From contig NC_044019.1 of assembly GCF_900496995.4 (NCBI RefSeq), positions 558,001-622,000 of the forward strand: DNA of 64,000 nt. The letters run 5' to 3'. Both the position numbers and the translations under genes were made by a program. Positions 4,232-62,330 of this stretch are shown here, one piece after another. This DNA comes from Aquila chrysaetos chrysaetos. Taxonomy: Eukaryota; Chordata; Aves; Accipitriformes; Accipitridae. The stretch's first letter is position 1; every line of letters starts with the position of its first letter. The notes beneath the pieces were generated by a model that searched no databases, was not told the DNA's origin, and was given only the letters and a program-made list of their open reading frames with translations.

Positions 4232-6299
4232 GTTAAGAGATACCAGTGCACCTTTGAGGGCTGTCCGCGCACCTATAGCACTGCCGGAAACCTGCGCACT
4301 CACCAAAAGACACATCGTGGGGAATATACTTTTGTCTGCAATCAAGAAGGCTGTGGCAAGGCCTTTCTTACCTCCTACAGCCTCAAAATCCATGTTCGAG
4401 TGCACACTAAGGAAAAGCCGTTTGAATGTGATGTGCAGGGCTGTGAAAAGGCATTCAATACACTGTACAGGTAGGAAGTCTCTGCCTATTTCTCTTGTAA
4501 ATGTGGCTGTTGCTGTTTTGCAGGTTGCATCTACTTTTTCTTTGTGTCTGAATACAATTGTTATGCTTCTTCCAAGTACAGATATGAATATAACACACCC
4601 CCCCCCATGTGGAAATGCTATACCAGAAGTAGGATGACAGAACCTATGATGACATACTTAGCTTATTTATATTACAATAGTATTGAAGGTGGTGCACAAA
4701 CACAAGGAATTCTCAGATTTGCTTGGGAACTTCAGAAGTGATATCAGTTACTTTCATAAGCTAGTTACCTTCAGTTCAGAATATGTGAAGCCTTTGATCC
4801 CGTCCTGCACATTTAAATGAATGGCTTGCTTGCCTCACGTAGGGGCTGTCTCATCCAAGTCACAAGAGGGATTTTTTTGGCATGCTTTTTAGGTTGAAAG
4901 CACATCAGAGGCTTCACACAGGGAAAACATTTAACTGTGAATCAGAAGGCTGCAGTAAATACTTCACAACGCACAGTGACCTGAGGAAGCACATTCGAAC
5001 ACACACAGGAGAAAAGCCATTTCGGTAAGTTGCTGGATGGCAATTTTTACTGCTGTGGGATTTATGTAATGGGCCACCTGTGCCAAGAGGCAGCTATTAC
5101 TGTCCTGAATGAAAAGCTATTCTCATGAGAAAAAAGTGAAGGCGGCTAGCATTTGAGCATGTTTGTTCTAGAGCTCTCTCAGTTGCCTGTAAAAGTGGGT
5201 GAAATGACTGTCTTCAAAGACAAGAATAGTCAAGCTATTTTTTTAAACATAAATGTGTGCCACAATGAGCATGTTTTTAAATCATACTGCTGCTTCTCTG
5301 CTGTGATGCAATGTTTATTCCATGAAAGAGGACCCCCCAAATGCTGACATCATGCTTGAATTTGAGTCCTATTCAGAGCCCTGCTATAGTCTGTGTAGCA
5401 TGCATAGCAGCTGTTGGGAGATAACCTGATTGCTAACACAGATTAGCATTAGGCCAGCTTTTCAGAGTCCTGGGACTATTGTAAAGTGTGATCTAAGGTT
5501 GTAACTAATGCATCAAAGAAGCCTGATGCTAACTCTTCTGTGATGCCTCATTCAGGTGTGAGCATGACGGCTGTGGAAAGGCTTTTGCTGCAAGCCACCA
5601 CCTTAAAACGCATGTTAGGACACATACTGGTAAGTCCATAGGGTTTGTTTTTTTCCTTAATTGAGCTTAGTCAGTCTATACTAACTCTCAGAATCCTAGT
5701 ATATATTTATACTTATGTAAAATATGGGGGTGACTGAGTGGTGCAGTTGATGTGCTTGAGGGAAGGGATGCCATCCAGAGGGAACTTGACAGGCTGAAGG
5801 AGTGTGCCCATGTGAACCTCATGAAATTTAACAAGGCCAAGTGCTAACTCCTGCACCTGGGTCAGGATAATCCCCAATACTCCACTTATGCACTTTCATT
5901 TATGCCTGACAGGTCTTGAATTTCATGAATGTGTTTCACAAATGTATCAGTAATGATGCATAAAAATTAAATGTTGTGTTCTTGTGTCAGTTCACATGGT
6001 AAAACAGAAGCTTTTGTCTGCAAGACTCCCAAGAATGCTGAATGTGTGAAGTGGCATTAAACAATCTTGTTTGTATAAAATATTATTACTCTCCTAGGTG
6101 CTTTAAAAGTATGTGTCTGATATAATGTCTGTAAGTTTGTTATATATGTTTTGCCCTGCCTATAGGGGAGAAGCCCTTCTTCTGTCCCAGTAATGGCTGT
6201 GAGAAGACTTTTAGTACACAGTATAGCCTGAAGAGTCACATGAAAGGTCATGAGAAAGGACATGCCTATAATGCACTTCCCAATAACAATGTATCTGAG
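4232..6299 (+). other. MTF1: MTF1 six-finger C2H2 DNA-binding domain
   Basis: Four exons encode six complete C2H2 fingers; every Cys and His pair is present. The fingers begin [60 protein letters not shown] and [12 protein letters not shown]. Linkers read RGEYT, TKEKP, TGKT, TGEKP and TGEKP. The unusual first linker (RGEYT in place of TGEKP) is a known MTF1 hallmark associated with zinc responsiveness. Splice junctions cut through the linkers or finger tips, as in mammals. Finger 4 reads TTHSDLRKH where I recall TTLSDLRKH in human. Confidence 0.97.
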
Positions 6300-9200
6300 G
6301 TTAGTAGCACTTCTTCCTAATGCTTCTGTGTTAGATGGAGATAAAACCATACTTCGGGGAAGAAATTATTTGGTCTGTAGGGTGTTCTAAAGGTATAACA
6401 TTTAAGACTGGGATTTTCAAAGGGAATTGTAACTACTTGGTGCCCTGTCTCCCATAAAGAAACCCATGGGTGCCTCTTTTGAAGCAAGAATTCAATTTGA
6501 ATTCTGAAATTGCTGGCATTCAAGGTGGCAGTGCAGGGTTTATTCTCATATGTTGTGTTTACAGTGTGCTGATAAGAAACAATGGGATCAGTATTTTTGA
6601 AACTTCTAGTGTGGTGTTTGGTTACCAAGTTTTATTTAGAAATGCTCATCTAAATTTGTCTATTAATTTTAATCACATTAAAATTAACACTTGGGTTACT
6701 GCTGCTTTGATGAGATGCCACGTACTGCCACAAGTTTATAGGCAATCATGTATATTATCATGCTTTCCTTGTAGATTCTTATGTTTTAATCAATACTATG
6801 TAATAAGTGTGTGAAGTAAAATAAATACTAACTGTTAAGGTTTAAATTTTTTATTTTCTATAGGCTGATTTGTTCCTGTGCTAATTTCAAAAAAATTAAC
6901 CTAGAATTTTAAGTAATGTGAAAGAGATGTTAAGAATCCTTGATAGCTACTAAATATCCTTTGCTTAATAATATTGCTCCTTTGATTTTAGAACTGAGAC
7001 TTGGGTCACGTACAGGTAAAAAAAATTCTGTATAGGCAGAATTGTGTGGACTCTTAAAAAGTAATTTAAAACACTTCTGACACTTTTTTAATACATAACT
7101 CAATTTCTTTTTCTTCTTTACAGGATACAAGCCACTCACTTTGTCTGAGTGACTTAAGCCTCATATCAACAGATTCAGAATTGCGGGAGAACTCTAATCC
7201 AGTGAGTTACTGTCCTGGAATTGCCTCGCCCATAATCCGAGTTTTGCTTTTTTCTGGCAATGTGCTTGTCCTGTCAAATAGAACACAGCAGATTTGATAC
7301 GTATGGCTGGTGGCTTCTGTTTCTCTTGTTCAGGCCTCCAGCATACTCTACTTTAGGCTTTTATTTTGCTAGTGGAGGAGACATACTCTTCGCAGAATAA
7401 GTGACTTTACATAGAATTGTTTTAGATGTACTGTATACTGGTTTTGGGTTTTTTTTTTTGTGTCTTGTGGCAGTTTGCAGGAGGCACTCTCTTGACAAAA
7501 AACGTATGTTTCTTACACACCCTATTGAGCCTGTAAATATGATATACTATTGCTGTCCTTTTTGGAATGTTGGGAAGAAAAAAAAAAATTCTGTCTAAAA
7601 GCAGAATAACCGAGTGAAAGAGGGGTTTTCCTCCAAAATATGCGGTGCTTAATTCAACCTGTTTTTAAAGTCTCTGCATCTGATTTTACCGTAATAATGT
7701 TCTTGCTTATTGATAACTGTTGACTGAGCTCAAATTTTGCATAGAGGAAAATTATATACTGATGAGGCTGTGTCATTCTTTTGTGCTTTGATGTGGAAGC
7801 AGTGTGCAGCTTTTTAATATATTCTGTTCCTAGAGCAGGGTGGGTGACAGTAGTGCATAAGAGTCCATAAGTGGACAGACAGTCCAGGATATAATCTAAG
7901 CGGAGCTATTTTGTTTCTGCTCCAGAAAAGGTTTCACAAACAGCCAAGAACAAATTCATGTCTGTTTCTAACAGAGTATTACAAGAAATAAGGGTTAAAC
8001 AAAGTGTGGATGCAGAAGAATATATTTTACTTCTGAAGGACTTACTTATTTTTGTAAGGATTTGCTCATTATGTTGGTAAACTTGATTGTGGGTAATAAA
8101 AACTAAGTGTCATTTTACAATAGGTAAGTGAAATATGTTGCCTTTCCTGAAGGTGGCTAGTTAATTGGAGAGGCATTTCTGACTTTCATACGCTGCTTGA
8201 CTGGGATGTGTGCAAAGTTTATGGAGACCTGAAATATAATGTTATCTGATGTCTTCTTCTGTATTTTCTATTTACCAGACACACGGACAAGACCTTAGCA
8301 CAATCTCACCAGCAAGCATCTTTGAGTCTATGTTTCAGAGCCCGGATCACACTGCAAATCAGGATGACTCTCAGCAGACAGGTACAAATTGTATCTGCAG
8401 TATTTTAAGAGAGCTTTTTGAGTTTTCCCCCCTCTGCATACAGGTACTTAATTCAGCATTTCAGACTGAAGATTACTGCCCCACATAACTCTAAGTAGCA
8501 AATAGAACTTTAACTTCAGTGTGGAAATTCTTTTGTGTTGAAATGCATTGTATTCACAGACGGTGTAACATGCAGGCAGTGACAGGGGAACTGACTGAGC
8601 ATTTACAGCATGTTGTCATACAATGCTGACATTGATGCTCTTGGACTTTCCACATAAGCATTGTTTTCAAGCTTCCTCTCTTGATGTAGTTGCACAAACC
8701 GGCTGATAAAAAGGCTTCTCAGAGAAAGCTAATGAGGCTGATCAGCTTGTGTGTAGTATTCAGTGTTACAAGCTTCCTGAATTGGGACCTACTTTTAGAT
8801 TCTAGTGTTACATGTTTTTGAGCACTAGTCTGAAGATGTGAAAGAGGTTACTTAGCAAAAATCCATCAGCTAGCTGTTAAGTTCATGGAAAAACGTTGTT
8901 TATTCAGATTGTACAGGGACTGATGTATTTATATTTTTTCTTTGTTTCTTTTGGCAGCTGCCTTGATTGAAGGTTTTAACGGCGATGCAGACTCAGTCAC
9001 TGCTGTTCCGCCTTCTGCAGGAGACTCGGCATCGTTGTCTCTTCCACTTGTACTGCAGCTTGGCATCTCTGAGCCTTCGCATTCAGCACTACAAGCCTCA
9101 GCAGCACCTGCTGCTCCCTCCTCCATAGGAACCAGCTCACAGCAAGCTGCATTTGGAAATCCTGCAACTGTTTTACAATCCCCAGAAGTGCCTGTTCCTC

Positions 9201-11910
9201 ACAGCACACAGTTTGCAGCCAGTCACCAAGACTTCCTGCAGCATACTCAGACACCGCCACAGCCCATTGTACAAGGACTTTCAGTGGTTGCTGGGGCATC
9301 TGCCCCAACAGCATCAAGTGCCACTGAGCCCCTGCCAGCTGTAGTTCAGACTGTGCCTGTTGGTGCGAACTCGGTTCTGACCAGTAATCCAACTATAACA
9401 ATTACTCCTTCTCAGAGCACCGCTATTCTGCAGTCCAGCATTGTCATGGGAGAGCAAAACTTACAATGGATCTTAAATGGTGCCACCGGTTCTCCACAAA
9501 GCCAAGAACAAATGGTTAGTATACCCAGCATGGCTTTGAAACAGCTTGAACCATCTCTCTTCCTCCTAGAGTCCTTGCTTTTTGAAAAGGAAGGAGATCA
9601 AACCTCTAACTGTAAGATACAAACCAGGATGCAATATTGTATAATGCTTATCACGTTAATATGCATAAACATGTCACCAATGTAGCCCCTAAAATAGAGA
9701 AATAAATAGAAATAGATAGAGAAATCCAGGGTGCAGAAAAATCTTGCTTTCTTCTTTTTCCCTAGTGGCAGACTTCTCACAGCAGGTATCAGCTTGGTTT
9801 ATCCAGGACAGTGCACCACGTGGCCTGAGAACATATGTGGGTTTTTATCTATTACTTTTGAGAAGTAGAAGCACAAAAGACTCTGTGTTTAGGCATTTTG
9901 TAATCTCTGTCTCTTCCTAATTTAGCCTGATAATGAAAAGTTTTCTGGGAAAACAGAATGTTTCTTGTTCTCCAGTAAATCTGGATAGCTGAGACTTTAA
10001 GTGTTTTATCTTTAAGAATACCATTGCCACCTTTAGGCTTTCTCAGTTGCAGATGGTCAAGAGTGAACGGGTGCAGGTACAAGGAGTATGAGCAAGCACA
10101 ACAGTTTTTCAAGAATTCAGTCATTCAGTTGTCAAAAACCACAAGCTGTGTTAACAAGCATGTAGCGTGGAGGGTGATTACTCCCCATCTTTAGGACTAC
10201 TGAAATAATACTCTGAGTTTTGGGATAGCCAGAACATAGCCCAGAACCAAGATAAATGTTATAAATTTTTTTTTTATTTCCCTGTGCATTCTCTTTGGAA
10301 TATGTATGTAGCTGTTTCTTTTGATTGCAGCTGTTTAGAATTTGAACAGTAAAAAGTTGATTGGAACCAACTCATGCTTCTTTTTCTTGTTTTCTTTTTT
10401 TTTTCTTTAAAGCCACAAGTTCCAAAAGTAGTAGAAAAGGTTTTTTTTACCACTGCATTACCAGTAGCTGGCAACACAGGTAAGCTTGACACTGAACTTG
10501 CTTTTCTCTCTTTCTCTGTTTGTAGTACTGTTAGTTTGACACATTTGTGGTGATTTTTTTGCTTGCAGAAATGTTGAAGAAAATCCTTTCATTTTTTTTA
10601 CCTTCCTGAGGTTTTAAGTGCAGTCTGCTGCAGACTCAGAGGTTTGTGCTGAGATCTGTCCTGTAGTAGTTTCTCTAACAACTTGTAAGATAATCAGGTT
10701 CACAAATTAGATCCAGTATTGATAAAAATGGTATTTTAATGGAACTTAAATAGAAGAATAAAAGACAGAAATGCAGGGACATAATTTGTTTTTTGTTCTT
10801 TTAAATGAAGACACGAAACGGGTAGTAAACTAGTAAACTTAATCAGTTCTTTAGCAATTGTTTTTGGTAAGCACTATCTGTGAGATTCATCAAAATGATA
10901 CACAACTGTAGAAGTTCTGTTCCATAACATGCTTCCTACACAGTGTTGTTATATTGCAAAGATGAATCAATCAATCAAGAGAGATCAGGTAAGTTTAAAA
11001 CTTAAATTTTAAAAAAGAAAGGAAGCCAGGCAAGTAGAGCAGCGTAGGAAGAGTGAGAAGGAAGCATGAGAAGCAAGATGGGAGAGGAAAGCAGAGTGGA
11101 GAAAATGAACAGCACAATGCCTGTGTTGATGTCAAGGAGTAGAATTGCTAGTGTAATGTTGTATCATCATCTTCAAAGATTGGTGCATAGGGACTGGGGC
11201 ATTTGAATGCCACTCTTTATTGGATTTTATGCAGTGAAAGTTACCATGGTTGTCAGAGAAGAGACATACTGTGCTGTGTAAAAAAAATTTAGATCGGACT
11301 TCTAATGCCTGGGTTCAACCTGAAGAGGTTGCTCATCAACAGAGAGTACCTGCCACTTTTTTCTTGTTTTTCATCTGCTAGAGCTGTTCACTGTACTTGA
11401 ACAAAGTAACATGTAATCTCTGCTGCAAGGTGCATACAATCTAATTAAACAAAGATGATTAGTCTCTCCCTGCTGTGAAATTACGTAGTTCTGTTTTGTT
11501 TTGTCTTTGTTTCGCCTTTAGGAAACCCTGTTCAGCAGATTGGTCTCAGTGTTCCTGTCATTATTATAAAGCAGGAGGAGGCCTGCCAGTGTCAGTGTGC
11601 CTGCCGAGACTCTGCCAAGGACAAAGCCACCATTAAGAAGGAATGTTCCTCACCTGATCCAAAAGCTTTGGAGCAGCCAGCTCCCCAGCTGCAGCCTCAG
11701 ACCTTTCCTTCCTCTTCCCCTTCTCCTTCATGTGGGCAGAGCAGTCAGATAGTTAACGCTTCAGACTCACAGACTGAAACATTAAGTGCCATGGATGTAT
11801 CGGACTTCCTGTCCCTCCAAAGCCCTGAAACCCCATCTAATATAATTCCAATTGAAGCACTACTGCAGGGTGAGGAAGAAATTGGTTTGAATAGCAGCTT
11901 CTCTAAGTGA
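4232..11910 (+). CDS. MTF1: Metal regulatory transcription factor 1 (MTF1), 3' nine coding exons, 5' part outside the window
   Basis: MTF1 is the zinc-sensing nuclear transcription factor that binds metal response elements and induces metallothioneins and zinc exporters. Nine exons splice in frame: 4232-4470, 4893-5024, 5556-5629, 6166-6299, 7124-7201, 8279-8381, 8958-9514, 10413-10479 and 11522-11910 (stop TGA 11908-11910). They total 1,773 nt, or 590 residues, against about 617 for the same part of the human protein. All introns have GT/AG ends. Exons 1-4 encode six C2H2 fingers. Next comes an acidic, leucine-rich segment ([18 protein letters not shown]), then a long Pro/Ser/Thr/Gln-rich activation region with the conserved stretch [14 protein letters not shown]. 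The last exon has the cysteine cluster CQCQCAC, which family studies tie to metal-induced activation, and ends [16 protein letters not shown] as in mammals. No disabling change is visible. The start codon and N-terminus lie before the window. Confidence 0.97.
5727..5882 (+). mobile_element. CR1 LINE fragment (reverse-transcriptase ORF, 3' part)
   Basis: The stretch reads on the + strand like the C-terminal part of a CR1 ORF2: a segment decoding to [11 protein letters not shown], then [12 protein letters not shown], a stop codon, then [11 protein letters not shown]. This is the signature CR1 segment of bird and reptile genomes. It is truncated at both ends, contains an in-frame stop, and sits in the MTF1 intron between the fifth-finger and sixth-finger exons. 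It is a dead 5'- and 3'-truncated copy. Confidence 0.92.
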
Positions 11911-19492: not shown

Positions 19493-22375
19493 ATGCTGAG
19501 GGCGCGGCGGGCGGCGCTGGCGGCGCTGGCTCGGGCCGGGGAGGGAGGGCCGGGCCCGGCACCGGCACCGGCACCGGCACCGGCACCGGGCCTGGGCCTG
19601 GGCCTGGGCCTCGCCCGCAGCGCCCGCCTGCTGCTGCCGTCCGGTGGCGCCGCCCAGCCCGACCCGCAAGGTGGAGGCCGGGTCCGGGGGGAGGCGCGGG
19701 TGGCGGCGTGGAGGGAGGCCGGGGCGGCGCTGGCGGCGCTGGCTCGGGCCGGGGAGGGAGGGCCGGGCCCGGCACCGGCACCGGCACCGGCACCGGCACC
19801 GGGCCTGGGCCTGGGCCTGGGCCTGGGCCTCGCCCGCAGCGCCCGCCTGCTGCTGCCGTCCGGTGGCGCCGCCCAGCCCGACCCGCAAGGTGGAGGCCGG
19901 GTCCGGGGGGAGGCGCGGGTGGCGGCGTGGAGGGAGGCCGGGCCGGCGCGGCGGGAGGCTCGGGCTGGGCTGGGCTGGGCTGGGTTGGGCTGGGCGGGGT
20001 GGGGGGTGCCGGGCCGCCCCGCTGACCCGCCGGTGTCGGGCAGGCTGGAGGGAGGCGGTGGCGGCCGCCGTCGGTGCCTTGCAGGCGGGCGGGCTGGTGG
20101 CGGTGCCGACGGACACGGTGTACGGCGTGGCGTGCCTGGCCCAGGACTCCGGCGCCGTGCGGAGCATATACAGTCTGAAGGGGCGGAACGGGAGGAAGCC
20201 GCTGGCCATCTGCCTTGGGGACGTGGACCGCCTCTACAGGTGGGCGCGGGGGCTGTGGCCGGCCCGCGGAGCCCCCCTGGGCTGGGCGGGCCGCGCCGCC
20301 GGTCCGCGGGGCTCTGCTGGGCTCCCGAGCCCTCCCAAGAGCCCGGCGGCACAGCGCTGCTTCCTACGGGGGGGCCGGGGGCTGCCGGTGCCGTTCGTGG
20401 CGGGGAGCGGCCGCTTTCCGCGCTGCAGAGCGTGAGGCCGCGGGGAAGGGCTGCGCTGGAGCTGCTTCACAGTGCCCAGCACCCGCGGTCCGGGCCCTCT
20501 AACGCTTCCTCTTGCCGTGTAGATACTGCCAGGTGAACGTGCCGGATGAGCTGTTGCGGGACTTGCTTCCAGGACCTGTGACCCTGGTCTTGAAACGTTC
20601 GGAAGAACTAAACAAAGACTTGAATCCTTTCACGTCGGTAGGTCTTTGCTACAGGACGCATCTTGGGGTTTGAGGGACGGTGCGCTATTTCTGCGCTTCT
20701 GCTGTTGTAGCTTTTATTCTGACGCGTGTGTTTAGCATGCTTAGCAGTGACGGGCATTCTCCCAAAGCTGGTCCCTGTGCTGTCATGCTCCCTGCGACTT
20801 ATTTGAACACGGCACAACCCAGCGTTGGGGGCTAACTTACAAGACGCATCTCGTATTATTGCTAGTTCAGCGGGTGTTGATGTACTGATTGTCTCGAGTA
20901 TCAGCTTTAAATCAAGAGGGCTTTAGGCAATGCAAGATTAAAAATGGTTACTGTGTGTAACACCGAGCTCTCTCCTTCCTTGTAGCTGGTTGGTGTTCGT
21001 ATTCCAAACCACCCTTTTATTAGGGAGTTGGCACGAGCTTGCTCTGGACCACTGGCTTTAACAAGTGCTAACGTCAGCTGTAAGGCGAGCACGCTGACGG
21101 TTTCGGTAAGGCTGGTTTTGCTACTAAGTGATGTTATTGTGGTAGTCTGTCAGAGCCCCAGGCTCTCACAATTGGAAGCCAGCTTTAGCAATAAACCAAG
21201 AATTTCTCTGCTGCTATTATATATTGTTTTAAAGTGATAATCTCTAGTTAAAACAGCCGGCAGATACGTGCTGTGGGGTAGCTGTCTTGCTGTGATCCTC
21301 ACCTTGAAAAGCGAGGAGGGCAGAGCTGAAAAGTAGTATTTAAAGGCGTATACATGCCTTTTGAAGTGGGTGCCAAATCTGAAAGACGGAAATGGCTGTA
21401 GGAGGGGTGGCTGTGGAGTGAGACTGCTGCTGACTGTACAGCTCCTTGCAGCCTGGTAACTAACAGTAACTCAAGGAGATATCTTTTTGCAAAGCTTGTG
21501 ACCTTGGTGATGGTGTAGTTGGGCACAGTAGCAGACAGACACCTCATCCTTGCCCCCATATGTCTTGATAGACTTCTGGCTTTTTTTGTGCGCTCCTTAA
21601 TAAACAGTGGTGCAGCTAAGAAGTCTTCAACCAGGGAATCCTTGTGGCTTTCCTGCATGTCTCAGAGAAATCTGTTGTAAGAAATCAAACTGAGATGTGT
21701 TCATGATAGAAAAAAAAGTGAGCTGACCTGATAGCAGAAGGGGAGAGACCACCTCCCTTAACAACAGAATGTCCAGTAGTGTCTCTTAAAACGCAATCAC
21801 AAACCATCTTCGGGACTCTTAGCCACATCTCTTTTTTTTCAGGAATTCCAAGACCTGTGGCCTCAGTTGTCCTTAATCATCGATGGAGGCCCAATAGGGG
21901 ATGTCCAGAGCCCAGAGTGTCGTTTAGGGTCAACTGTGGTTGACTTATCTGTGTCGGGGAAGTTCACCATCATTCGTCCTGGCTGGTGAGCACTCTTTGC
22001 TGAGTAGAACTGTAGCTTTTTCTTTAAATGAAATGAAGCTTTCAAATTAGGGTGGGTTGTGTTTTGCTTTTTTTCCCATGGCAGTTGAACCTTCACGTTA
22101 ATCCAGCAGGCTCAGGAATACTGGAAGTGCTCTAGATTCCAAGCCCAGGAGACCCCTTTCTAGAAGCTTCTATGTGAAACACTCTAGTTCCTGGAGTTCA
22201 AGTTCTCCTCGATTCAAAATGCAATACGGGGTCTAGCTGATTGCTCTTTCCCAGAAAATGGAGTTTAATCCTTCAAAACCTTTTTTCTGATGGTTCTGTT
22301 TCACCCCACAGTGCACTGACACCTACAGTTGAAATCCTGAGGCAGAAGTATGGCTTGATACCAGAATCATCTTGA
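19493..22375 (+). CDS. YRDC: YRDC, threonylcarbamoyl-AMP synthase, six exons
   Basis: YRDC makes threonylcarbamoyl-adenylate from threonine, bicarbonate and ATP, the first step of t6A37 modification of ANN-decoding tRNAs in cytosol and mitochondria. Exons are 19493-19670, 20044-20239, 20523-20637, 20986-21105, 21843-21985 and 22312-22375 (stop TGA). They total 816 nt, or 271 residues, close to the 279 of human. All introns are GT/AG and phases fit. The SUA5/YciO/YrdC domain is clear: AVPTDTVYGVACL, then SLKGRNGRKPLAICLG (the KxR motif), DLLPGPVTLVLKRSEELNKD, LVGVRIPNHPF, SGPLALTSANVS (the S...N motif), LVIDGG-type LSLIIDGGPIGD, CRLGSTVVDLS and IRPGCAL. The N-terminal leader is rich in Ala-Pro and Gly-Leu dipeptides from hexamer repeats. 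A second, identical donor at 19889 lies in a tandem copy of exon 1; using it would add 73 residues. I chose the first donor because it gives the family's usual length. Confidence 0.95.
19511..19942 (+). repeat. YRDC: Tandem duplication of the YRDC exon 1/intron 1 boundary, 213 + 219 bases
   Basis: The unit at 19511-19723 is repeated at 19724-19942. By eye the copies are identical, except that the second has one more GGGCCT hexamer (four in place of three). Each copy contains the (CACCGG)5 run, the Gly-Leu repeat, the LLLPSGGAAQPDPQ segment and the donor CCGCAAG/GTGGAG. Both unit lengths are multiples of three, so the frame stays open across the pair. The near-identity means the event is very recent or is an assembly artefact in GC-rich repeat DNA. 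Confidence 0.93.
19958..20007 (+). repeat. GGGCT pentamer tract in YRDC intron 1
   Basis: Imperfect tandem copies of GGGCT/GGGTT run for about 50 bases and end in a GGGGTGGGGGG run. The + strand has many closely spaced G runs, so it could form a G-quadruplex in DNA or nascent RNA. It lies just downstream of the duplicated donor sites. Confidence 0.75.
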
Positions 22376-24228: not shown

Positions 24229-25912
24229 TCAGCGGGATGTCTTCTCTTTGCTGCAATGTTCTGCTCATCTGCGAGTCAGCTCCAGGTATGTGCTCGGCTG
24301 ATGAGGAAGGTAGTCCAGATGAAGGCGTGTCAGCGTCTTCTTGGGTACAGCTTTCTTGATCTGGGTGCCTTCGTGCCATGTGTTGAAGGATATGATGGAG
24401 ACGATCTCTAGTCTGACCATGAGAGCAGCCTGCAGAGCTGTTTCATAGTACTTACCATTGACTCTGTTCCGAGTGTTGTGGTTGTTCCAGGGGCGAATGC
24501 TGCTGTCGATGTAGCCTGGGCCAGCGCTGGGGATGAACATCAGCTTGTTGGAGTCGCAGAAGTTTTGATTGCGTTCCAGTTCTGGTGGGATGAGCCAAAA
24601 GAGAAACCGTTGGGCACAAAGTATGCGTACATGCCATCATACCCTGCGGAGAGTATTTCATGTTTGTGTCCCTCCTCCACCAGCAGCGCTACGAACACAG
24701 CGTTGTAAGAGGTGTTGCAGAGAAAATGGGAGCCTGATGGCATGAGAATGTTGGCTCAGGATTCAGCTGATGTCAAGTAGGAATCATAGATATAAAACAG
24801 TGGGAGACTATTGCCGGTGCCGGTCTTGGACTTATAAAAAGCTGCGTGTGATCTGTATCTAGAGGAGAGCACAAAGCTTTTTCAGAGGCGGGGGTGATAA
24901 GCCCTCAGCAGACACTTCTATTATAAGGCAAGCATGGTGTGAGACGTGGTTTGCTGTAGGGGCCTCCTTTCCCAGAACCTTTATCTCTGTCTTCACGGGA
25001 GTGCCTGTGCCTGCTCCTTTCCTTTTTGAAAGAAAGGGTAGAGGTGCCAGCCTACAGGCGGTAAGTTCAGAAACCTGAGCAGAAGAAAGCAATTTTGGGT
25101 TCTGAAGGCAAGGTATTGAAGTACCAGAGAAAGCAGAATTAGATTGTGACTCCTGCCCAGTACTGCCCTGTTGGCTCGCTCTAGGCAGCTCCCTCCCCTG
25201 TGCACTGTTTTTTTGGACACTATTCTGATGCATTTAATTCAAAGGTCTGCATGCACACTGTTTGTGCTTAAAGCAACATTATGCAGCTGGATTTAGCCTA
25301 TGTGAAAAACTTACTTGTCCATGATGTATCTGATATTCTCATGCATGGTGTGGTCATCGTGCCCTTTGTATGGCTGGATATGAAAGGCAGCCTTCAAAAA
25401 AGCCCACGGAGATGGTTATTTTCATCACATGGTACTGCTTTCTCTGCACCCTGACCTCCCAGAAGACCGCAGATCTGCTGTAAAGGACCTTCTGTCGCCC
25501 ACTGTGGCCAGACTGGGCGGACCACTTCACGACACATGTAGAATACAGCAGCCTACTCGGTGAAGCCAGGGCTTTCACTGGTTTTCCCTAATGCTAGTAA
25601 AAAGGAAACTGAAAATCCCAATTATTAAGAAGAGGAAAAGCCCTGTATTTAGCTATTGTTCCCATGGTCTTAAACACAAGTACTTGTTTATTTTAACACG
25701 GTCACTGAAGCAGAGGAGCAGGGCCTCTGCCCAAGCACAGCATCAGCTTCATGCTGGAGTCGAACGGCGAGTTTAATGGCCTCTGCCAGCAGACAAGAGC
25801 CTTACCTTTATGGCGTACCTGCACGCAGCATCCAGTACGGAGAGCACGAGGCTGTCCGACGGCTCACCGTTGTCGTCTGCTGGGCCGGGTGGGTACCGGG
25901 ATGGGACCAGCA
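24229..25912 (-). pseudogene. MANEAL: MANEAL pseudogene (GH99 endo-alpha-mannosidase-like), three readable exons
   Basis: MANEAL is the paralogue of Golgi endo-alpha-1,2-mannosidase MANEA (family GH99). Three exons are readable on the - strand with intact GT/AG junctions and matching phases: 25912-25806 (YPPGPADDNGEPSDS), 25391-25315 (AAFHIQPYKGHDDHTMHENI) and 24858-24229 (LPLFYIYDSYLTS, ALLVEEGHKHEIL, AGYDGMYAYF, GPGYIDSSIRPWNNHNTRNR, WHEGTQIKKAVPKK, YLPHQPSTYLELTRR). Breaks are a Trp-to-stop TGA at 24758-24756, a one-base deletion in an A run at about 24562-24566, and a second Trp-to-stop TGA at 24267-24265. The GH99 motif NEWHEG reads NTWHEG, losing one catalytic Glu; a conserved LSWYPPG reads PSRYPPG. 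The first exon (signal anchor and HWDHVMVPHWDPK region) was not found. Introns are kept, so this is a decayed resident gene in its syntenic place, not a retrocopy. Confidence 0.9.
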
Positions 25913-25989
25913 CTCCCGCAGTGGCACCGGACAGAGCAGGTCTCGGTCAAATGTCTCGTGCCTGAGCTTCTCCTCTTCCCGTGCAGCGG

Positions 25990-26545
25990 CAGAGCAGTAA
26001 GCGTCTCCCATCACTCCAGCACTTTAGAGCCCCACGGTGTTTAAGCCCCGGTTACGAGAGGCTGTACTCTGCGCTCCCGGGTACCTGTCGGGGCCCGTGG
26101 GTGCCAGCAGCACTGACGGGGGGAGCAGCGGGTACGGGTGCCCGGTGCTGGGGCGTTGTGGCATGGCGGAGGGGAGCGACTGCAGCCGCTGGTGGCCCCG
26201 GTGACGGCTGCGGGGCAGTGGTGGGGGGCTGCTGTGTGCCCGTGCCTGGCACGGTCGGCCGCCCTCCGGGGTCGGTGACCGGGAGGGCTCGGGGCTGCCT
26301 GCAGCCGCAGAGGCGGGGGCTGGCGGGCCGGGGCCGGCGGAGCCCCCGCCGGTGTCCCCCACCGTCACGGTGGGACCGGGATGCATGTGCGGTGGTTCCC
26401 TCGGTGCCGGGGGCTGATCCCCCGCGGGACCGACGATGCTCCCCGCAAGACCGGCACGGCGGGGAGGCCTGGTGATGGGCAAGGGCAGCGGCTGCCGCCC
26501 GCGCTCGGTTCCCCGAGTGCAGCCGCTAAAACGGGTCGTTGATGG
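25990..26545. promoter_or_regulatory. CpG-rich island upstream of the MANEAL relic
   Basis: About 550 bases are GC- and CpG-rich against a plainer background. It begins about 80 bases upstream (on the - strand) of the first readable MANEAL exon, where the promoter and first exon would be expected. The - strand here can be read as Pro/Ala-rich peptide, like the stem region of MANEAL, but I could not recognise the conserved exon 1 motifs. It may be a surviving promoter island of a dead gene or an unrelated promoter. Confidence 0.45.
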
Positions 26546-26639
26546 AGGACTAAACTTACTCGAGGAAAGGAAAACACACTCCAGCAAACACTGAAGTGTG
26601 ACTATCCGAGCTGTTAAAGGAAATAACATTTTAATTGGG

Positions 26640-29600
26640 TGAATCTGTTACACACAAATGTTACAGGCGATAAAACTCCTGGTAAATGGGAACCCAGTAA
26701 TGAGATGAACCTGTCAAGGGAACAAATTGCCTGCAAATCAGAAACAGGCTTCCGAGGCTCTCCAGCAGCTTTGGGGCTTCCATTATTCTGCTTGGCTGAA
26801 GCTCGTGCTGCCCCACAGCGCTGGAGCCTTCTGGCAGCTTTTCCTCACGACAGCCACCCATGCAGAGTCGTGGTCTGCGGGAGGAGTGTGAGTAAGCGTT
26901 AGCGAGCTGTAGAGACAGCTAGAAGTTTGCCTTTCAGAGCTTTATGTGGTTTTTGGCTGGGCTAGACGCGTGCAAGAACTAACTGTGGGCTGGGTGCCAG
27001 GTTGGCAGCAGTGGTTCTGGTAGGACATCAGTGGAAAGGGGTGTTGGGAAAGCGTCCCTGTTCTGGCTAGTGTGCTGGGACTCCAGCGAGGAGAGTGCCT
27101 GGCCAGTCCTGGTGTGATCCTGTGGGGTGCTATATTGCCTTGGGTACGTTTTGGCCTCTAAAATGCCTGTAACTAGTGCCACCTGAGTTTGCCAAAGAGA
27201 TTTGGCAAACTTCTCCCTGGTGCTCGTACACCAGCCCTGCTGTGGGGGTGATGCCCGATCCTCTCTCCCTGGGGGTACCAGCGTCCTGTCCAAAGCAGCT
27301 ATTTCAAGTCCTAGTCCCAGCTGTATTTCATGCTTCACCATATGCGGCTCCTACAAGCAGCACAGAGCCAGTGTTGGAAGAGCAGCAAGGAGCGTCCCCC
27401 TGCTCAGATGAGCAGGTTTTTTTTGTAAAACAGAGAAACTCATCTTTGTCCTCTGTCTCATCTGGGTGTAGGGCACAAGTGCTTCTGGAGCCTGAATGCT
27501 GCACACATGGGACTTGCTCTAGGAATAATTCATCTCTGTGTTTGAATGCTGTACCCAGAGGGGTGGAGAGGGGCATCAGACTCTTACCTCTTGACTTTTT
27601 GGATCTGTTTGGTCAGAACACAAATGCAGCTATGCCTTCCTAAGGAAGCTGCTGGACCTCCCGATTGCAGGGAGATACCAGAACCCATGGTGCAAATGTA
27701 CTTAAGTGGCTCGGGGGGTATAAGGCAGGCAAACGCCTCTCCTGCTTTCCCCATTTATTTTTCAAATCTCTTTAAGACCAGTGTGATAATTTTGGAGGCC
27801 TGATTCATGCTTGGGGGTGACGCTCCTGTGTGTTCATTCATCAGCTCACATCTGCTTCGGCCTCTTCAGGGACTCGGTGAGCTTGGTTCCCCGCTTTGCC
27901 TCTCACTTACTGTCATCTGCTGGAGATGAGGACACTTTTTAATCTAATTTAGTGGCTGCCAGTTGTGAGTGCAGGGAGCATCGTGCTGAGCCAGCTAACT
28001 CAGGAAGCTAGCGGTGCTGTGTTCGTAGTCTTTTTCTGAGTCATTTCTTTCACTGGCTTGTGCAAAGGATGCTGCTGTTTGTGACCTCCTGGTTGGCAGA
28101 CCCTTGCGCCTGAGCTCACTAGAGCCACCAAGAACCAGCTGCAGGGAAGGAGGCAGTGGGGCTAAATACCACTGCTTTTTGATGGACAGTTTTAAATTGC
28201 TCTATTCAGCCCATCATCCCACAAGTAGCTGCTGTCATTTTCTTTCAAATAGCTACCTTCAGGCTACTTGGAGAGGTCAGGCTACAGAGGGTGGATGCTC
28301 CAGGGAGGTGGGAAGAGCTTTCTCTTTCTGTATCTGGTGACAAGGACGCTGGACAGAAATCTGCAGACCAGAGAATTTGCTGTCACTATTCTCCATCTGT
28401 GAGTTAAATACCTCTAGAAACTGTCTATGACATTTAGTTTATGAACTGGCAGATGAATTACCTGAAGGCAGGGCAGAACCATCTAAATAAAAATTATCTG
28501 GAAGCAATGAGCAGGGGGTGCATGGTGTACGGGTCAGGATCTTCAGGTCTAACAGCCACATCTAACTGGGTAAAATGGTGGTGTGGCTCAGTCTGGGTCT
28601 CCACGCTGCCCATGTGATATGTGTTCCAGCAGCATCACAAGGATCAGCTTTTACTGGACTCCTATCCCTGAGCCCACCCGACGCAACTGCCCCGTAGTGC
28701 AGAAGGCCCAGAAAGATGAGTTCCCAAAAATTACTGCTCCAGGACGCTTCCCACTACTGCATCGCCGGAGATGACGCTTGTTCTAAACGGCTCTCACGCT
28801 GACTTCCCTGATGCCTCTGTCCATACAGGTTTGTTCTCTGAGCAGCCCCATGAGCTGAGCCGGACTTCCAGCCTTTTGCTTCCAGGGTTGCCGAGGCGCC
28901 GGAGCCATGTCTCCCACCACTAGATAGAGCTAGGCCACCGCAGGGAGCCTTGGAGCCGGCGGCTGAACTGGCTGACGTGTGTATGGTTGCTTAAAAGCAT
29001 TAATAAGCGAGTGCTGTGCTGGGGCCTCGCTGACACGGGCTTGGCGTGGCGCAGGTGGTGGCTTGTGTGCGGAGCTGCCCGCCGCAGGCGAGCGGCTGCC
29101 GGGGAGAGCTGGACGTGGTGCTGCGCTCCCGCCTGTGCCTGGTCCTTGCAAAGCCCACGCTGGGATGATTTTTCCCAGTGTCTGAGTGCCACAGAGTGGT
29201 TATGTATCTTTATTGCTCTGAGCAGGTGTCTCAGTCGCTGCTAATGGACTGTAATACACACAGAGCTGACCCCAAAATGATGTCTTCACAGAAATTGCCT
29301 GTCTGGGGAGCTTCTGCTGTAAAAGCCCAGAAGCACCAGGCTGGGGTGAATTACTGTCATCTGCAAAGCGTGTGCGTGAGGGGTCTCTGGGTGCTTCCCC
29401 TTCTCTGACCGTTTGCTCTTACTGCATCTTTCCAAATTGGGTATCCTGCAGGATAGAGGGGCCGAGGGAAGTAAGAGGGATCGCTTCCCTTTTGTCTGTC
29501 TGCGCAGGACCTTCTCCCCTCCACGACTGTCCCCGCAGTGTGGATAGGCACTGAGCAGAGGGTATGATTTGGTGGAGGGGACAGAGCGGGGCATGGGGGG

Positions 29601-31080
29601 TCCCTCCTTGGGCCCTGGCAGGCAGTGGGTGCGGGCAGTCTGCTCCCCACAGCCCCCGGTTCACACCGACGCTGAGCAGAGCCAGAACCAGCTGCCTGGA
29701 TGCCTGGCTTGCCCCGCACCTGTAGTGTGGATGTAAAGGCTGTTTGGGGGCTCACTGTAACGTCTCACTGTAGCGAGCAATTTCCCTACTGATTCTGCTC
29801 CCTCTGTATTTGCATGGTGAGCTTCCCCCTCGTCTTGTTGCTCAGCTCATCAGCTATTCATTGATCTTTGCCAGGTTCCTCCAGCACTCATTCATCACTC
29901 TCACGCCCGCCATCCACTTTCCAAATGTTTCCTGTTTTTCCGGTGATGTATTTCCCTGTTCAGACAAGCTAATCTTGTGCCATCAATAATCGGGGTGCAG
30001 CTGTGCTCCTGACCTCTGTGCTGGCACAGGCACACGGCTCTGCCCTCCGTGGATGGAGCCAGCCGAGCTGCAGGGGCCTTCTGGGAGCCGCTTCCCCGGC
30101 TGTTGGGTCTCTGTTGCAGCAGGTCGTCCCTCCCCTTGGGGACTTAGAAGCATGCAGATGGAGGTGATGCCCTCATGGCCAGGAAGGGCTGTTTTCCCAT
30201 AGCTGGGTGGGGGGTGATGGTCTTCAAGAAGGTGAGGCAAGGGCCTGAGGCAGAGCAGCCTTGCTTTAAAGGGGCTGGCTTTGCAGTCTGCTCTGGGGTG
30301 CCCAAAGCCTCGTCTTTCTGCCACAACTTGGCGTGGCCTTTGCAAGCAGCCTTGGTGGGCAGAAAACTGGGGAAACAGATCGGCATCTCAGCTGGTGCCT
30401 CTGCTTCTGGCTCATTCCATGCTGCTGGCTTTCAGTGTCCCTGCAAGTGACAGCTTTATTTGTGCCACTGGCATCAAGAGGATGAGCCACTCGTCAGGCA
30501 TGGGTGAAATGGCTGGTGCCCTTGTTCCCTTGCAGGAAATGCAGACACTATAAATTACTTCTTTTCTCTGGCTGCTGGGTGTCTGCAGGCCACTGTAGCT
30601 GTCAGGGTGATGTACACAGGACCAGCTAAAGTGACCAGCCTTTGTGTCAGCACTTGGGCACTGTCAACACCTCTGGAACACACCAATATGGAGCAAACCC
30701 AGGCTTTGTTGCTTATTCGGGTGTTCTTGATACTTTCCAAAGTGGGGACCCTGCTGCTGTGCTGAGTGATTTTGTGCAAAGTCTCAGTGCCAGCAATCGT
30801 GTGTGCAGCGGGCCGGGGGACATGGCATCAGGACCGACAGCAGTGGTGAGCTCTGGGGCACTGCAAGTTGTCTGCTGAGATGCATTGTGAAAATACACTC
30901 ATCGCTAGTTAGGACATGCTGATGAGACAAATAGCTTCTGCTGGAGTGGAGAGAGATGCCTTTTTAGATCTTGTAGGTGGAACTATAAACGCTTGCATAA
31001 GCCAATTCACAGGAGCAGTACAGATCAGGGTGACACTTGTGTTTGCAACCCTTGTTGAAATCACATTGGCATGAGCACTC
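26640..31080. other. Gene-free stretch, first part of the 35-kb interval
   Basis: Unique sequence of moderate to high GC with many short open frames on both strands. None has a start codon, domain and splice sites that agree. I see no RNA gene and no clear transposon. In human this interval separates MANEAL from EPHA10. Confidence 0.5.
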
Positions 31081-31210
31081 AGAGCAGGAGATACATGGTT
31101 TGCATTTTAATTAGCACTTGCCCTCCAAATAAAGATGCATCTTTAGAACCTCATTAGCAGAGCCAGTTCAAACTCATATAGCAATGATTTAAATGAGCAA
31201 CAACAGACCA
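31081..31210. promoter_or_regulatory. AT-rich island with POU-like and homeodomain-like sites
   Basis: A local AT-rich block contains TTTGCAT (31099-31105, octamer half) fused to TTTTAATTAGC (31105-31115, homeodomain core), followed by AAATAAAGATGCAT and ATTTAAATGAGC. Such composites are typical of neural or developmental enhancers. This is a motif-based candidate only. Confidence 0.3.
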
Positions 31211-32880
31211 GGCAGGCTTAGTCTGTGTTGATATCAGAGGTGAAGCTGCTGAGTGTCTGACCCTTTCCATCCCCGTTAAAGCCATTGGGGAAAAATGCTG
31301 TCAGGGATTTGTGTTTGGAAGCCTTGACTGTGTAATCTGGTCTGTCTGATGTCAGGCAGTTGCTGGGTAACTCTTGCTTCTCACTGTGATCTTATCTACT
31401 GATGTTCATTGAGTGCTTCCCCATGTCCACAATGTCATTCTTGCTGCTGCAGTTGGTGGCTAAAAGCCTCTGGCTTTTCATACCCTTTTTTATTTTGTGC
31501 AGCTGTTACATGGCAGAGGTGGTCGTGCTGAGAACTTTTCACAGCTGGTATAGTTGGAGCACCCTTTATTGTTGACTTCTGGTTATTGCTTGGAGTACTG
31601 TAGGAAGCAGGACATAAATCAGAGCAACCCAGGAATAACTTGTTACAGGAAGGTGCCTCAGACAATGTATTTAATTGCTTTAATATTTTTTACACATTTT
31701 TGGCCATCTCTAACAGTGATTGCCACTAGATTTATTCCTTGTCCTTCCTCAAGCTCTGCAGGCCTGAGTGAACGTGTATGGCTTCACAGTGCCACAGTAC
31801 AGGCATGGTCTGCCAGGTGCAGATATGCCTCAAGTCATGTCTTTGATGGGGCAGTCAGGAAGTCTTTGGCAAAACTGCCCTGCGCCTGTGCAGGGGTGAG
31901 GTGCTGTCCCTGGGGAGACTCACAAATACCAGCTCTGTGTCCTGAGGGTTCTTTGCCTTCACGCCACTGATGTCATTGAAGGCAAAGCAGCTAAGTCCTG
32001 CTTTGGTGGGTGCAGCAGCAATGTGCCTGCAAGGCTGGAGCATCCTCCTTGTCGCAGAGTGGCACTGGAAGCCACCGGAGCACCATTCTTGCTGCAAAAA
32101 CCTGGCTCCCCCAGGGATCCTGCTATCCAAGGCATCTGCTAGCCCCAGCCAGGGAGAAGTTTTCCTCCATCGCCGCAAACTGAGATCTGCAATGCTGCTT
32201 TTAAATGCCCTCGCTCTACTTCACAGTACAGAGCAAAGAAAACCAGGCTTGGGCTAATTAAGCTGGAAACACAACATTGCAATTTGTAGCTGATTAAATC
32301 TTTCAAACAATATTTATGTTAATCTCCTTCTGATTTATTTTCTTATAATGCCTTGACTAGGACATAGTCCAGTGCATGGGGAAATGCTTCCAGATGGAGC
32401 ACAGTCCGCCTTGCCAGATGCTTGAAGCTCAGAGTGAGGACTTTTCACTCACTGTGGTTACAGCCAGGAGAGATGATCCTGTCCATCTAGGCCATTTTTG
32501 TACATAGAGGGGGATGCTGAGCTGCAGTTCTTGTTTTTGCTGCAGGAATGAGTCCGCCTGTAACAGGAGAGGGCTGTGAAACAGCGCGTGGGAAGGGGCA
32601 TCCATGAGACAGCCAGTTCTCGGCTGGGGCTGTTCTGCCTCTCGTACACACACCTTGCGTCTCTGAACGAGGGCTTTGCTGTCTCAAGAGGAGGCTGCTG
32701 TAAAATGCTCCTTTGAGTTTATCTCTGGAGATTATAGGGGCCTATTACAAAAACCCAGTTTCCATTTACATGCTGCACATGCATACCCACTTATACTGTC
32801 CTCCAGCCCTTCTTCCAGCTCCAGAGTTGGCAGGATGCCTGACAAATTTCCACAGGATACTGATTTAAGGAATTAGTCTG

Positions 32881-32935
32881 TAGAAGCATAGACGATAGTG
32901 ACAGAAGGGACCTTGAGGCCATCTGGAGAGTCCGC
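32881..32935 (-). mobile_element. Possible degenerate CR1 3' end, minus orientation
   Basis: The segment reads like the reverse complement of a CR1 3' terminus: an AGAAGCATAGACGATAG-type tail, then GAAGGGACCTTGAGGCCATCT. The usual consensus has GAAGGGACCT followed by a GATCATCTAGTCC-type block. The match is short and diverged, and the flanking 200 bases do not extend it clearly. Confidence 0.45.
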
Positions 32936-33304
32936 TTCCCCAGACAGCATCCCCTCTCCCAAGTCACTCCAGACACATTTGTCAGATTTGCTCTCAGCTC
33001 CCTTTTCTGGAGGAAATTTCACCTGGCTGCTGCTCATCTTCTTCCTATTTTCCAGGTCCTTAAAAAAATATTTATTGGGACTGGAATTTTTCAGGGGCTT
33101 AAAGGTAATGTGGTCTGTGTATGCCCATCTCTTCTCTTTTTTTCTCCCTTTTTCAAAAAGGTTGTAGTTTACCCTTTCTGTTCTTGACACCTTGGAGATG
33201 GCTGCAGGGTGAGTCCCGGGGTAGAGGGCTCTGAGCAGCGCAGGTCAAGGTGGGGATGTGCTGGGGGACAGGGCTGCCATGGGCTGCCACTGCTGCCAGA
33301 GCCC

Positions 33305-33334
33305 AACTGCTGGAGCGATAACTGCTGGAGCGAT
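33305..33334 (+). repeat. 15-base tandem duplication
   Basis: The unit ACTGCTGGAGCGAT(A/G) occurs twice in direct succession in otherwise unique GC-rich sequence. It appears to be a small slippage event with no evident function. Confidence 0.7.
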
Positions 33335-33389
33335 GAACAGCCCGTGCTTGCAGGGAGGATAGCTCTGGAGGTCAAGGGGTTTTCACTGC

Positions 33390-33520
33390 GGAATTGTTAA
33401 ATTAAGTATTCATTTAATTATATTTTGATTAAATTAGATAATCTTTTTTTTTTTTTTTAATTTCACCAGCAAATGATTCTCTGCATAATTAATGCTGGCT
33501 GATTCTGCTAATTCACTTAC
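33390..33520. promoter_or_regulatory. AT-rich island dense in TAAT cores
   Basis: About 130 bases of AT-rich sequence sit abruptly within GC-rich flanks. They contain repeated homeodomain-type cores (TTAATTA, GATTAAATTAG, ATAATTAATG, CTAATTC) and a T14-type run. It is the densest of many similar islands between 31 and 59 kb and a candidate enhancer on motif grounds only. Confidence 0.3.
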
Positions 33521-36500
33521 TGCTGCTGAAGGGACACAGGTTTCAGTTGCAGTCTAAGCCACGTGCTGGTTGCCAGGAGCTGGTACTGCCTGTGCTGTGT
33601 CAGGAGCTGCCCCGCAGGAAAGCCACGCCATGGCCCTGGGGCTCCCCGGGGAGCACTCCTGTCCCCGGGGCCTGGGGATCTCCGGGACAGGGAAAGCACT
33701 GGATCAGACCCCTCCTTGCAATGAAGCTATTCAGTTTTATTCATGAGCCTGCTCTCCCCTGGGTCTGTGATGATGCTCTCCATTAACTCTGCCCACAGGA
33801 TCTGGGCAGCTCTTGGAACCCTTCGAGGAAGGCAGACTGCAGCAGACTGTGTTTAGGATGATGTGGGGGCCAGCAGCCACACGTGGGGCAATGGGACAGC
33901 GTGGGGGTAGCGGTGCTGGAGCTCCCATGGGGGACTCGGCAAGAGAAGCAAGAACATGGCACAACTTGACCCTGCTTCTCCTTGGGGACAAACCCCAAAG
34001 CATCTCCTGCTTCTCAGGGACGTGCAGTAGCTTGTGGAGCTGTCATTACTGTGGGCTGAGCTGATGAGCTGTCTCCTGATGAGAAACGAATTTAGTTAAC
34101 CTCAAATTAGTCAGGAGAATGGGAGACTCTTCTTTGAAACGATGTCATTTAAACCATTGCACCTGAAATTATCCCCACTAGAAATGCAGCTGGAGGTAGT
34201 AATTAATTCACCGTGCTCCCATATTAATTCTGCAGCTGCTCTGCTCCAGCATGACTTTGACGAGCCATGTCCAGCAGTAGCTCTGGGCAGGGAGCCCTGG
34301 GACAGACAGCCTGGTCCCCCTTGGTTTCTGCGTGGCTGACCATCAAAAGATAATTTTCAGGTTTTTCTCCTTGGTGTATAGTCGTATCCTTTAAATACCC
34401 TTCAGACTCTGACAAGCTTCCCGAGGCATGGAGAGAGCACTTCCCGGCCTCCAGGTGTCTGAAGGCAGAAGTGGTGAGTCTACAGGGATTTGGGGTTTTA
34501 ATCATGAAAGATCATCTTTTAAAAACTGCAGTGTGAGCAGGACAATTGGTTTAATTATTCTGAGCATGTTTGGCCAAAATCCTGTGCCTGTTACAAGATG
34601 TCCCTACCCCTCTCTGCTGGGGGGGGGGGGGGCACAGCATGTTGCTGTAGTTGCTGGGGAGGCAAGTGGTGGAGCAGGGACTGCGGCGGAGCAGGGACCA
34701 CCAGTGCCTGGCTGGTCCTGGCAGCCCCAGGGGCTGGCGGGAGGAGCGGCTGGTGGGGGTCTGCAGTGCCTGGCTGGGGAAGGCTGGTTTTGGTTGGAAG
34801 GCTGCAATCGTCAGTAAAACTAAACTCAGCATCCAGCATGTTCCTGAGAGGCGACGCTGCCAGCAAGGTGCTGCTGCTGTTGGGAGCAGGCTGGTCCCGC
34901 AACCGGCCGGGCAGCCGTCCCGCTCCTGCTCGGCCGAGATGAGCATTTGGTACAGAGACCATGTGCGGCTCCACTTGTGCTTTCCGTGGTTAACGCTTCT
35001 GCGAATAACCTCTTAGAAATGATTCCAATTAGGCTAGCACATCTCTTTGTAATCTGGATCCCTGTTGTGCTGTCAGACTCAATTCAAATTTAATTTGCAG
35101 AAAGTGTATATCGGGCAGCTTTTTTACTTAGCACAAAACTTAGAGGAAGATAACATTGATGGAAAAAATAATACAAGTTCATATTCTTCTTACCTTAAGG
35201 AAGGAAAAGAGATGCCAGAAAACTTAGCCAAATTTACATTTTAATGGGAAATGTTACGACTGCCTGCTCCAGGAGACACAAATTGCTTTCCAGATGGGAC
35301 CCTGACTTTATACTAAAGTGCAGGGAATTAAATCTAGCAGCCTCTGATGAGATGAAAGGGCTATCTAGAAAGGCAGCCACTGCCACCAGCCAGACGTGAG
35401 GATGGGGCCAGGCGCTGCTGGCAGTGGCACGCTGCCTGTCCCCATCACGCCTGGGGACGCAGGCAGGAGGGCCTGGAGGGAGGGAAGGAGGCTGCTGGGA
35501 CTGACGGATGCAGGTCCTGGCTCCAGGGGCTGGAGGTGTCATGCAGGGGGCTGGAGGGCTGTTTGCAGAGAAAACCTGTGCGTTTCAAACCCTGGGTAAC
35601 CCTGCCCCTGCTGATGTGTCCGTGTCCCCCTCCCTTAAGTGGGTGATGGCAGAGGAAGGGCTGGCTATGAGCGGTCTGTCCTTGCTCCCTTTGCAGCGAG
35701 GTGGAGGTTCCAGCAGCATTAACTGCACTTGCACAAGTGCCACTTCAGCCTCTCCCGCTGGCAGCTGCAGCAGGAGCCCTGCCGAGAGCCTGTGTCAGAG
35801 GCAGCCGCTCTCTTCGGGGTTTCTCTGCCCTCTTGTCTAATTGTTCCTAATCAGAGCAGCTCAAGCCTGCAGACAGGCTCCAGCAGCGTGTCTCCGCGAT
35901 GCCAGCATGGTGTCTCAGACCTTCACGCAGGGACAAAAGCTGTGCCCAGGAGAAGCTGCTGTTAATTTCTTAGCATCTTCAAGCTCTTTGAAGATGAAAA
36001 CACGGTGCAGTGCTGTGTAGTCTTATCTCTCTGGCAGTGCCTGTCACCTGCAGCCGTTTCTGGCACATTCACAAGCTCGGCAAAGGCTCGTCCCTGCTGG
36101 GACCAAGTCTGGGGAGCCGCAGGGTTGAAACTAGGAATGTGTCTTGCGTCTCCTGCAGCTCTGCTGGGCTCGGGCACAGAGCAGCCTCTGGCTTGGGCAG
36201 GCAGCTGATGTGCTGTTGTCTAGCCCTTGAACTTGCAACAAAAGAGTATGTGAGCTGTTCTTAATATCTCTGGGTCCTCTGAGTCTCCCGGAGCTGCTGG
36301 GATGTCCCAGCTGTACCCCAGCCTGGTCCCTGCTCCCTTCTTTGTATGCATAGTTGCCCTGTCTTGGTGATAATGACCCAGCCTGTGCCAGGGATGCATT
36401 TGGGGGATTTGCCAGCATCTGAGCTTGTTTTTCAGATAATTTCTCTGCACTTGAGGGTAGCTGGTTTTGTATACACATTGGATTTTTTTATATTGGCAGC

Positions 36501-61239: not shown

Positions 61240-61483
61240 AGACTTCAGAGTGAACGGCGTCCCCGCCCCCGCCCTCGCCCCGCCCCTTCCCGCCGAGAGC
61301 CCCGGCGGCCGCCGCGGATTGGCCCTGCCGGCCCGCGGCCACGCCCTCGGCGGCGGCTGGCGGCGGCGGTTGGCGGCGCGGGGCGGGGGCGGGGCGCGGC
61401 GGCCGGAGCGCGGCGGCGGCGCGGGGCGCGCGGAGTCGGCGGCGCCATGGCGACAGCGCGCGGCGGCGGTGGCTTCCCCCGGG

Positions 61484-61530
<47 letters not shown>

Positions 61531-62330
61531 CCCCCGCGCCGCCGCCGAGCAGGGTGAGCCGGGGCGGGGACCGGGCGGGCGGAGCGGCGTGGCCGCGGCA
61601 CCCGGCGCGCCGGCACTCCGGCACTCCTGGCCGCGCCGTGTCCCCGGTGCTCCGGCGCCGGCGGCCGCGCCGTGCCCCCGCCCCGTGCCCGCCGGTCCTC
61701 GGCGCACGGTGCAGCCGCATCGGCCCCGGCGTCGGTCGCCCGGGGCGGGTTGGGCTGCGCGTTGCGGTGCCCGGTGCCGCCGGGGAGAGGCCGGCGCTGC
61801 TGGGCGGCAGGCGGCGGGTCCGCTCCGGTGCCGGAGGGTCGGGTCCGGGCGCGCTTCCCCTTCCTCCCGCCGTCTCCGGTGCCGCCGCCGCCTGCCCCCG
61901 CGGGCGCGGCGGCGCTGGCTTCGCGGGGCGGATGTGCCGCCGCTCTCCGGGGCGCGGGAGGAGCGGGACGGGACGGGGCTGGGGGTCCCGGTGGCCGCGA
62001 TCGCCGGAGACGCTGGGAGGAACGGGCTCCCGCGGCGCCCGCTGCCCGCGCAGCGTTGCCGGTCCCGGGCCGGGCCGCCCGTCCTGACGCGCAGGACCCC
62101 GGTCCGGCTGCGGGGGGGAGGCGGCAGCGCTGACTCCCCGCTGCAGCCTGCGCTCCGCACCGCGGGCTCGTCGGGGCTGTGGCGTGGGGAGAGGGCTCGA
62201 GCCCCAAAGGTGCGGGTGCGCTGCCGTGGGCAGAGCCGCCGAGCCTCGCGTGGGACGCGCCCTCGGGGCACGGCGTGGTCTGGTGTCTCGAACCTGGGGG
62301 GGACAGTTCGCCGGGCGGGGGTTGCTTCTG
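61240..62330. promoter_or_regulatory. EPHA10: CpG-island promoter of EPHA10
   Basis: A dense CpG island begins near 61,240 and covers exon 1 and the first 800 bases of intron 1. Upstream of the start codon are an inverted CCAAT box (GATTGGCC near 61317), and GC boxes (GGGGCGGGGGCGGGGC near 61380). No TATA box is visible. Long open frames on both strands here reflect stop-codon scarcity. Confidence 0.75.

Follow-up and report, generated by a model that had tools for sequence, protein, structure and literature searches.

On the evidence of its sequence, the minus-strand interval 24229-25912 of the analysed window (the whole stretch of DNA, 64,000 nucleotides long) is very probably a unitary MANEAL pseudogene that is decaying in place beside YRDC and encodes no working endomannosidase. 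MANEAL is the second vertebrate gene for a Golgi endo-alpha-1,2-mannosidase of family GH99. The relic combines retained introns, a syntenic position and disabling lesions, as expected of a unitary pseudogene. These lesions include the replacement of the catalytic glutamate, Glu404, a change that was absent from the first-pass annotation of this DNA and was found in addition to the stops and frameshift listed there. The coordinates of all features are collected in Table 1.

Table 1. Features of the MANEAL relic and its surroundings (window coordinates)
Feature	Coordinates	Strand	Basis or remark
MANEAL relic exon A	25806..25912	-	human MANEA residues 187-218; phmmer
MANEAL relic exon B	25315..25391	-	human MANEA residues 220-243; phmmer
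MANEAL relic exon C (last exon)	24229..24858	-	human residues 245-441 and beyond; 3' limit of the old frame provisional
In-frame TGA	24756..24758	-	position of human residue 278
In-frame TGA	24265..24267	-	position of human residue 442
Frameshift, one base short	24559..24566	-	reading frames of the flanking phmmer pieces
Catalytic Glu404 codon replaced by ACA (Thr)	24379..24381	-	NEWHEG to NTWHEG
CpG-island-like, GC-rich stretch	26000..26560 (approximate)	.	expected site of promoter and first coding exon
YRDC	20070..22375 (start provisional)	+	PF01300 in two exons; five exon pieces in frame
MTF1 (presumed)	4238..11907	+	C2H2 zinc-finger matches; five exon pieces in frame

Identity of the relic and its genomic setting

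The strong similarity described earlier for the three MANEAL exons was borne out by five colinear phmmer pieces with E-values from 1.9e-4 to 4.1e-42 against human MANEA (6zdc). Exon A (piece 25910-25806) matched residues 107-138 of the 6zdc chain (E 7e-5) and exon B (piece 25391-25317) matched residues 140-163 (E 1.9e-4). Exon C was recovered as three pieces, 24857-24759, 24755-24564 and 24558-24268, which matched chain residues 165-196 (E 2.6e-9), 199-262 (E 4.7e-21) and 265-361 (E 4.1e-42), respectively. Human residue numbers are the 6zdc chain numbers plus 80, as anchored by the DENGE motif at chain 115-119 and by N197 of PMC11025385. In this numbering the exons run colinear with human residues 187-441, with the introns kept; 150 of the 249 aligned residues are identical, and the D[D/E]NGE motif is retained in exon A. 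All three exon C pieces also matched Pfam family PF16317, although the shortest of them (33 aa) scored 23.6 bits, short of the curated 33-bit cut-off. The relic is of GH99 descent, as its similarity to the catalytic domain of that family shows, and synteny alone assigns it to MANEAL rather than MANEA.

The neighbouring genes supply that assignment. Two YRDC exons matched PF01300, with scores of 62.1 and 44.1 bits (cut-off 25.1); in the zinc-finger neighbour, which we take to be MTF1, one C2H2 match was over its cut-off (25.7 vs 25.2 bits) and the others were under theirs. The relic adjoins YRDC, with MTF1 lying on the far side of YRDC, and MANEAL next to YRDC and MTF1 is the human gene order. 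Because these neighbours stand alongside and the introns are kept, the relic is read as the resident MANEAL locus. The earlier claim that a resident gene is broken at its own site therefore held, given the introns, the adjoining YRDC, the several types of lesion and the lost catalytic Glu. A synteny study has also placed maneal in the neighbourhood of akirin1 (PMC2660306).

Across the window (1-64000), Rfam gave no matches at gathering scores, no CR1 tail motif was found with at most one mismatch, and repeats of at least 60 nt formed a single family. The compactness of the genes and the scarcity of internal repeats suggest that the host is a bird. A tandem duplication at 19513-19949 (period 219 bp, 90% identical) lies between YRDC exon 1 and a minus-strand start that presumably belongs to C1orf122 and for which no Pfam match was found. 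At 61484-61531, (TGC)16 forms a leucine run in a signal-peptide-like plus-strand frame with CGG repeats upstream. This frame may belong to exon 1 of the following gene, expected from the human order to be EPHA10; the plus strand of 61000-64000 gave no Pfam match.

Stops, frameshift and splice sites

The first-pass annotation had listed two Trp-to-stop changes. Both TGA codons are present, at positions (278 and 442) that are presumably Trp in the human protein. The one-base deletion reported at about 24562-24566 was reproduced: five bases (24563-24559) span chain residues 263-264, where two residues are expected, which shifts the reading frame by one base next to the A run at 24566-24563. The description of the splice sites as intact applies to part of them only. 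As judged by eye and unscored, the donors of exon A (GTAAGG) and exon B (GTAAGT) are both good, as is the exon C acceptor CTCCTCTAG, while the exon B acceptor TTTTTTGAAG is fair and the exon A acceptor CACTGCGGGAG keeps its AG behind a poor pyrimidine tract.

In total, the damage comes to two nonsense codons and one indel in the 814 bp of relic exons. With so few lesions, and with both donors and one of the three acceptors good, the decay is modest and the relic may have been translated until fairly recently. As it stands, the frame is closed within the catalytic domain by the two TGA codons and the frameshift, and the first exon is undetected; with the missense change at the catalytic Glu, this makes four kinds of lesion.

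For this first coding exon, PF16317 gave no match on the minus strand of 25913-35812 (three frames, E up to 10), in a search where the HMMER filters drop most weak matches, and when the entire window was searched by tblastn with human residues 104-186, the best match was at chance level only. That match (37394-37263, 23.9 bits, E 0.035) is gapped and lies 11 kb off, and it was taken as noise; five shuffled queries reached at most 22.3 bits, so that the real best is slightly above every shuffle. The exon has been either deleted or diverged beyond recognition. At its expected site, the segment 26000-26499 has a GC content of 0.746 and a CpG observed/expected ratio of 0.75, and no GH99 similarity was found across the CpG-island-like stretch (26000-26560). 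This stretch may have outlived the gene that it served.

The catalytic residue and other missense changes

Active enzymes carry Glu404 within EWHE, and the relic has Thr in its place. Conservation was gauged on bacterial GH99 loci, which were entered on a match to either of two patterns (residues 351-359 or 398-405, with the letters of the relic permitted at 356, 400 and 404). The set comprised the 80 loci kept of 122 confirmed, all 80 of which were used, and sites were counted only where at least 40 loci covered them. Residue 404 is Glu in 80 of the 80 loci, and the relic changes T400I, E404T and E412K all affect residues invariant in 80/80, the conservation of 400 and 404 being partly a consequence of the way in which the loci were selected. 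Across all near-invariant sites (at least 95% conserved among these loci), the relic is altered at 3 of 26, a figure to be read with the fact that 10 of the 26 sites, including 400 and 404, fall within the search patterns; outside the patterns it is changed at one of 16, namely E412. Additionally, W188, which is Trp in human and in bacterial 4acy, is Arg in exon A.

As a control, each of four aligned sequences was compared with the other three at the sites on which those three agree. The relic differs at 8 of 47 such sites, human at 1 of 40, 4acy at 2 of 41 and 4ad1 at 7 of 46, so that the relic is far above its fellow vertebrate and hardly above bacterial 4ad1. The bacterial loci show free variation at three of the eight relic sites (363, 395 and 397), and the weight therefore falls on 400, 404 and 412; positions 356 and 424 stand at 63/80 and 61/65, respectively. 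At the NEWHEG site the 6zfn variant chain reads NQWHEG, and E404Q has been likened to artificial inactive GH99 variants (PMC11025385). From GAA, the relic codon ACA is reached by two base changes, with AAA (Lys) as the intermediate on one of the two shortest paths; from GAG, three changes are needed.

Alternative readings

An error of sequencing or assembly in an intact gene would fit the frameshift, which adjoins a four-A run, a usual site of such errors. The same error would, however, have to explain two separate TGA codons, an undetected first exon and three missense changes at residues invariant in 80/80 loci, of which the one at 404 requires at least two base changes. The examined coding pieces of MTF1 and YRDC, about 2.0 kb (about 2016 bases) in all, contain no stop or frame break, and the N count of the window is zero. 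An intact gene obscured by error is thus extremely improbable, and the opinion that error was unlikely as the sole cause gains from these in-frame neighbours, together with the independence of the lesions.

Two further readings would accept the lesions as real, and both are very unlikely. The relic could be the spare of a duplicated pair with a working MANEAL elsewhere, for which there is nothing positive; as the relic adjoins YRDC and has its introns, it is the working copy that would have had to move. Alternatively, the locus could have been repurposed and be kept for an RNA or for a protein that is truncated or has no catalytic activity, as has been suggested for the E404Q CMANEAL of fishes (PMC11025385). 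The replaced E404 and the several splice sites that are still good are compatible with such retention, and a possible lectin role has been predicted for E404Q CMANEAL (PMC11025385), but the frame of the relic is stopped or shifted three times, E412 and W188 are changed too, and the first exon is undetected. Decay of the resident MANEAL at its own site is therefore preferred.

Probable cause and estimated age of the decay

Endomannosidase has a part in the first mannose trimming of N-glycans, in the cis-Golgi (PMC11025385). With MANEA doing the same job, loss of MANEAL would be tolerated, and relaxed constraint through redundancy is the likely cause of the loss, since across vertebrates MANEA is hardly ever lost and MANEAL often is (PMC11025385). 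The decay itself would have been neutral. From the stops, the neutral divergence is estimated at 0.08-0.17 (limits 0.01-0.49, for 2 or 3 stops and kappa 2-6), and from the invariant sites at 0.05 (limits 0.01-0.15, from 3 of 26 sites, to which the search-pattern bias applies), the latter on the assumption that 0.76 of changes alter the residue. Given a rate in birds of about 0.002 per site per million years, either divergence would correspond to an age in the tens of millions of years, but the limits are so wide that neither gives a firm date.

The loss of MANEAL in the lineage, as claimed in the first-pass annotation, is upheld as a broken gene in one assembly and is shown there only. One assembly alone is a small gain; the lesions nevertheless sit at the syntenic site, where they can be scored across related genomes, and they present the loss of MANEAL in readable form. 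The repeated loss in birds of one of two endomannosidase genes amounts to a natural experiment on redundancy in the trimming of Golgi glycans.

Comparison with known MANEAL losses

Losses of MANEAL in birds have been described as common yet scattered (Sobala 2023, PMC11025385), and the relic adds one example to this known pattern, so that its novelty is low; no paper describing this relic was among the matches listed, which included papers naming MANEAL. According to the same source, Strisores, Columbaves, Charadriiformes and Psittacopasserae are without MANEAL, falcon MANEAL has an N-terminal truncation and KWHE in place of EWHE, and the falcon and seriema genes, with their active-site mutations, were judged probably pseudogenic. 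The author inferred that MANEAL became a pseudogene in the ancestor of Australaves and later disappeared from the genome in the parrot-passerine ancestor (PMC11025385). Pseudogenisation was, by the author's own account, studied only indirectly, and TBLASTN, where it was run, counted any trace as presence (PMC11025385).

The replacement of E404 in the relic may be an event shared with the falcon-seriema lineage, in which falcons have KWHE, because the step from Glu to the Thr of TWHE takes at least two base changes and Lys lies on one of the two shortest paths from GAA. Should the host be a parrot, a passerine or another Australavian, it is conceivable, although we consider it doubtful, that MANEAL persists there as a relic whose first-exon loss and E404 lesion (E to K to T) are shared with falcons. 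If this were true, the ancestor of Psittacopasserae would not have lost MANEAL from its genome, contrary to the published reading; catalysis would have been lost first and the stops gained later, in an order datable in parallel lineages.

Compared with known systems, the relic resembles falcon MANEAL in its changed residue 404 and in its undetected start, which parallels the truncated falcon N-terminus. The two differ in that the relic has TWHE, two nonsense codons and a frameshift, whereas the falcon gene has KWHE, and section 11 of PMC11025385 mentions no stops in it. In Strisores, Columbaves, Charadriiformes and Psittacopasserae MANEAL is likewise gone, whereas here its relic still occupies the syntenic site. 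Human MANEA (6zdc) has the same GH99 domain as the relic, but is a working paralogue with NEWHEG.
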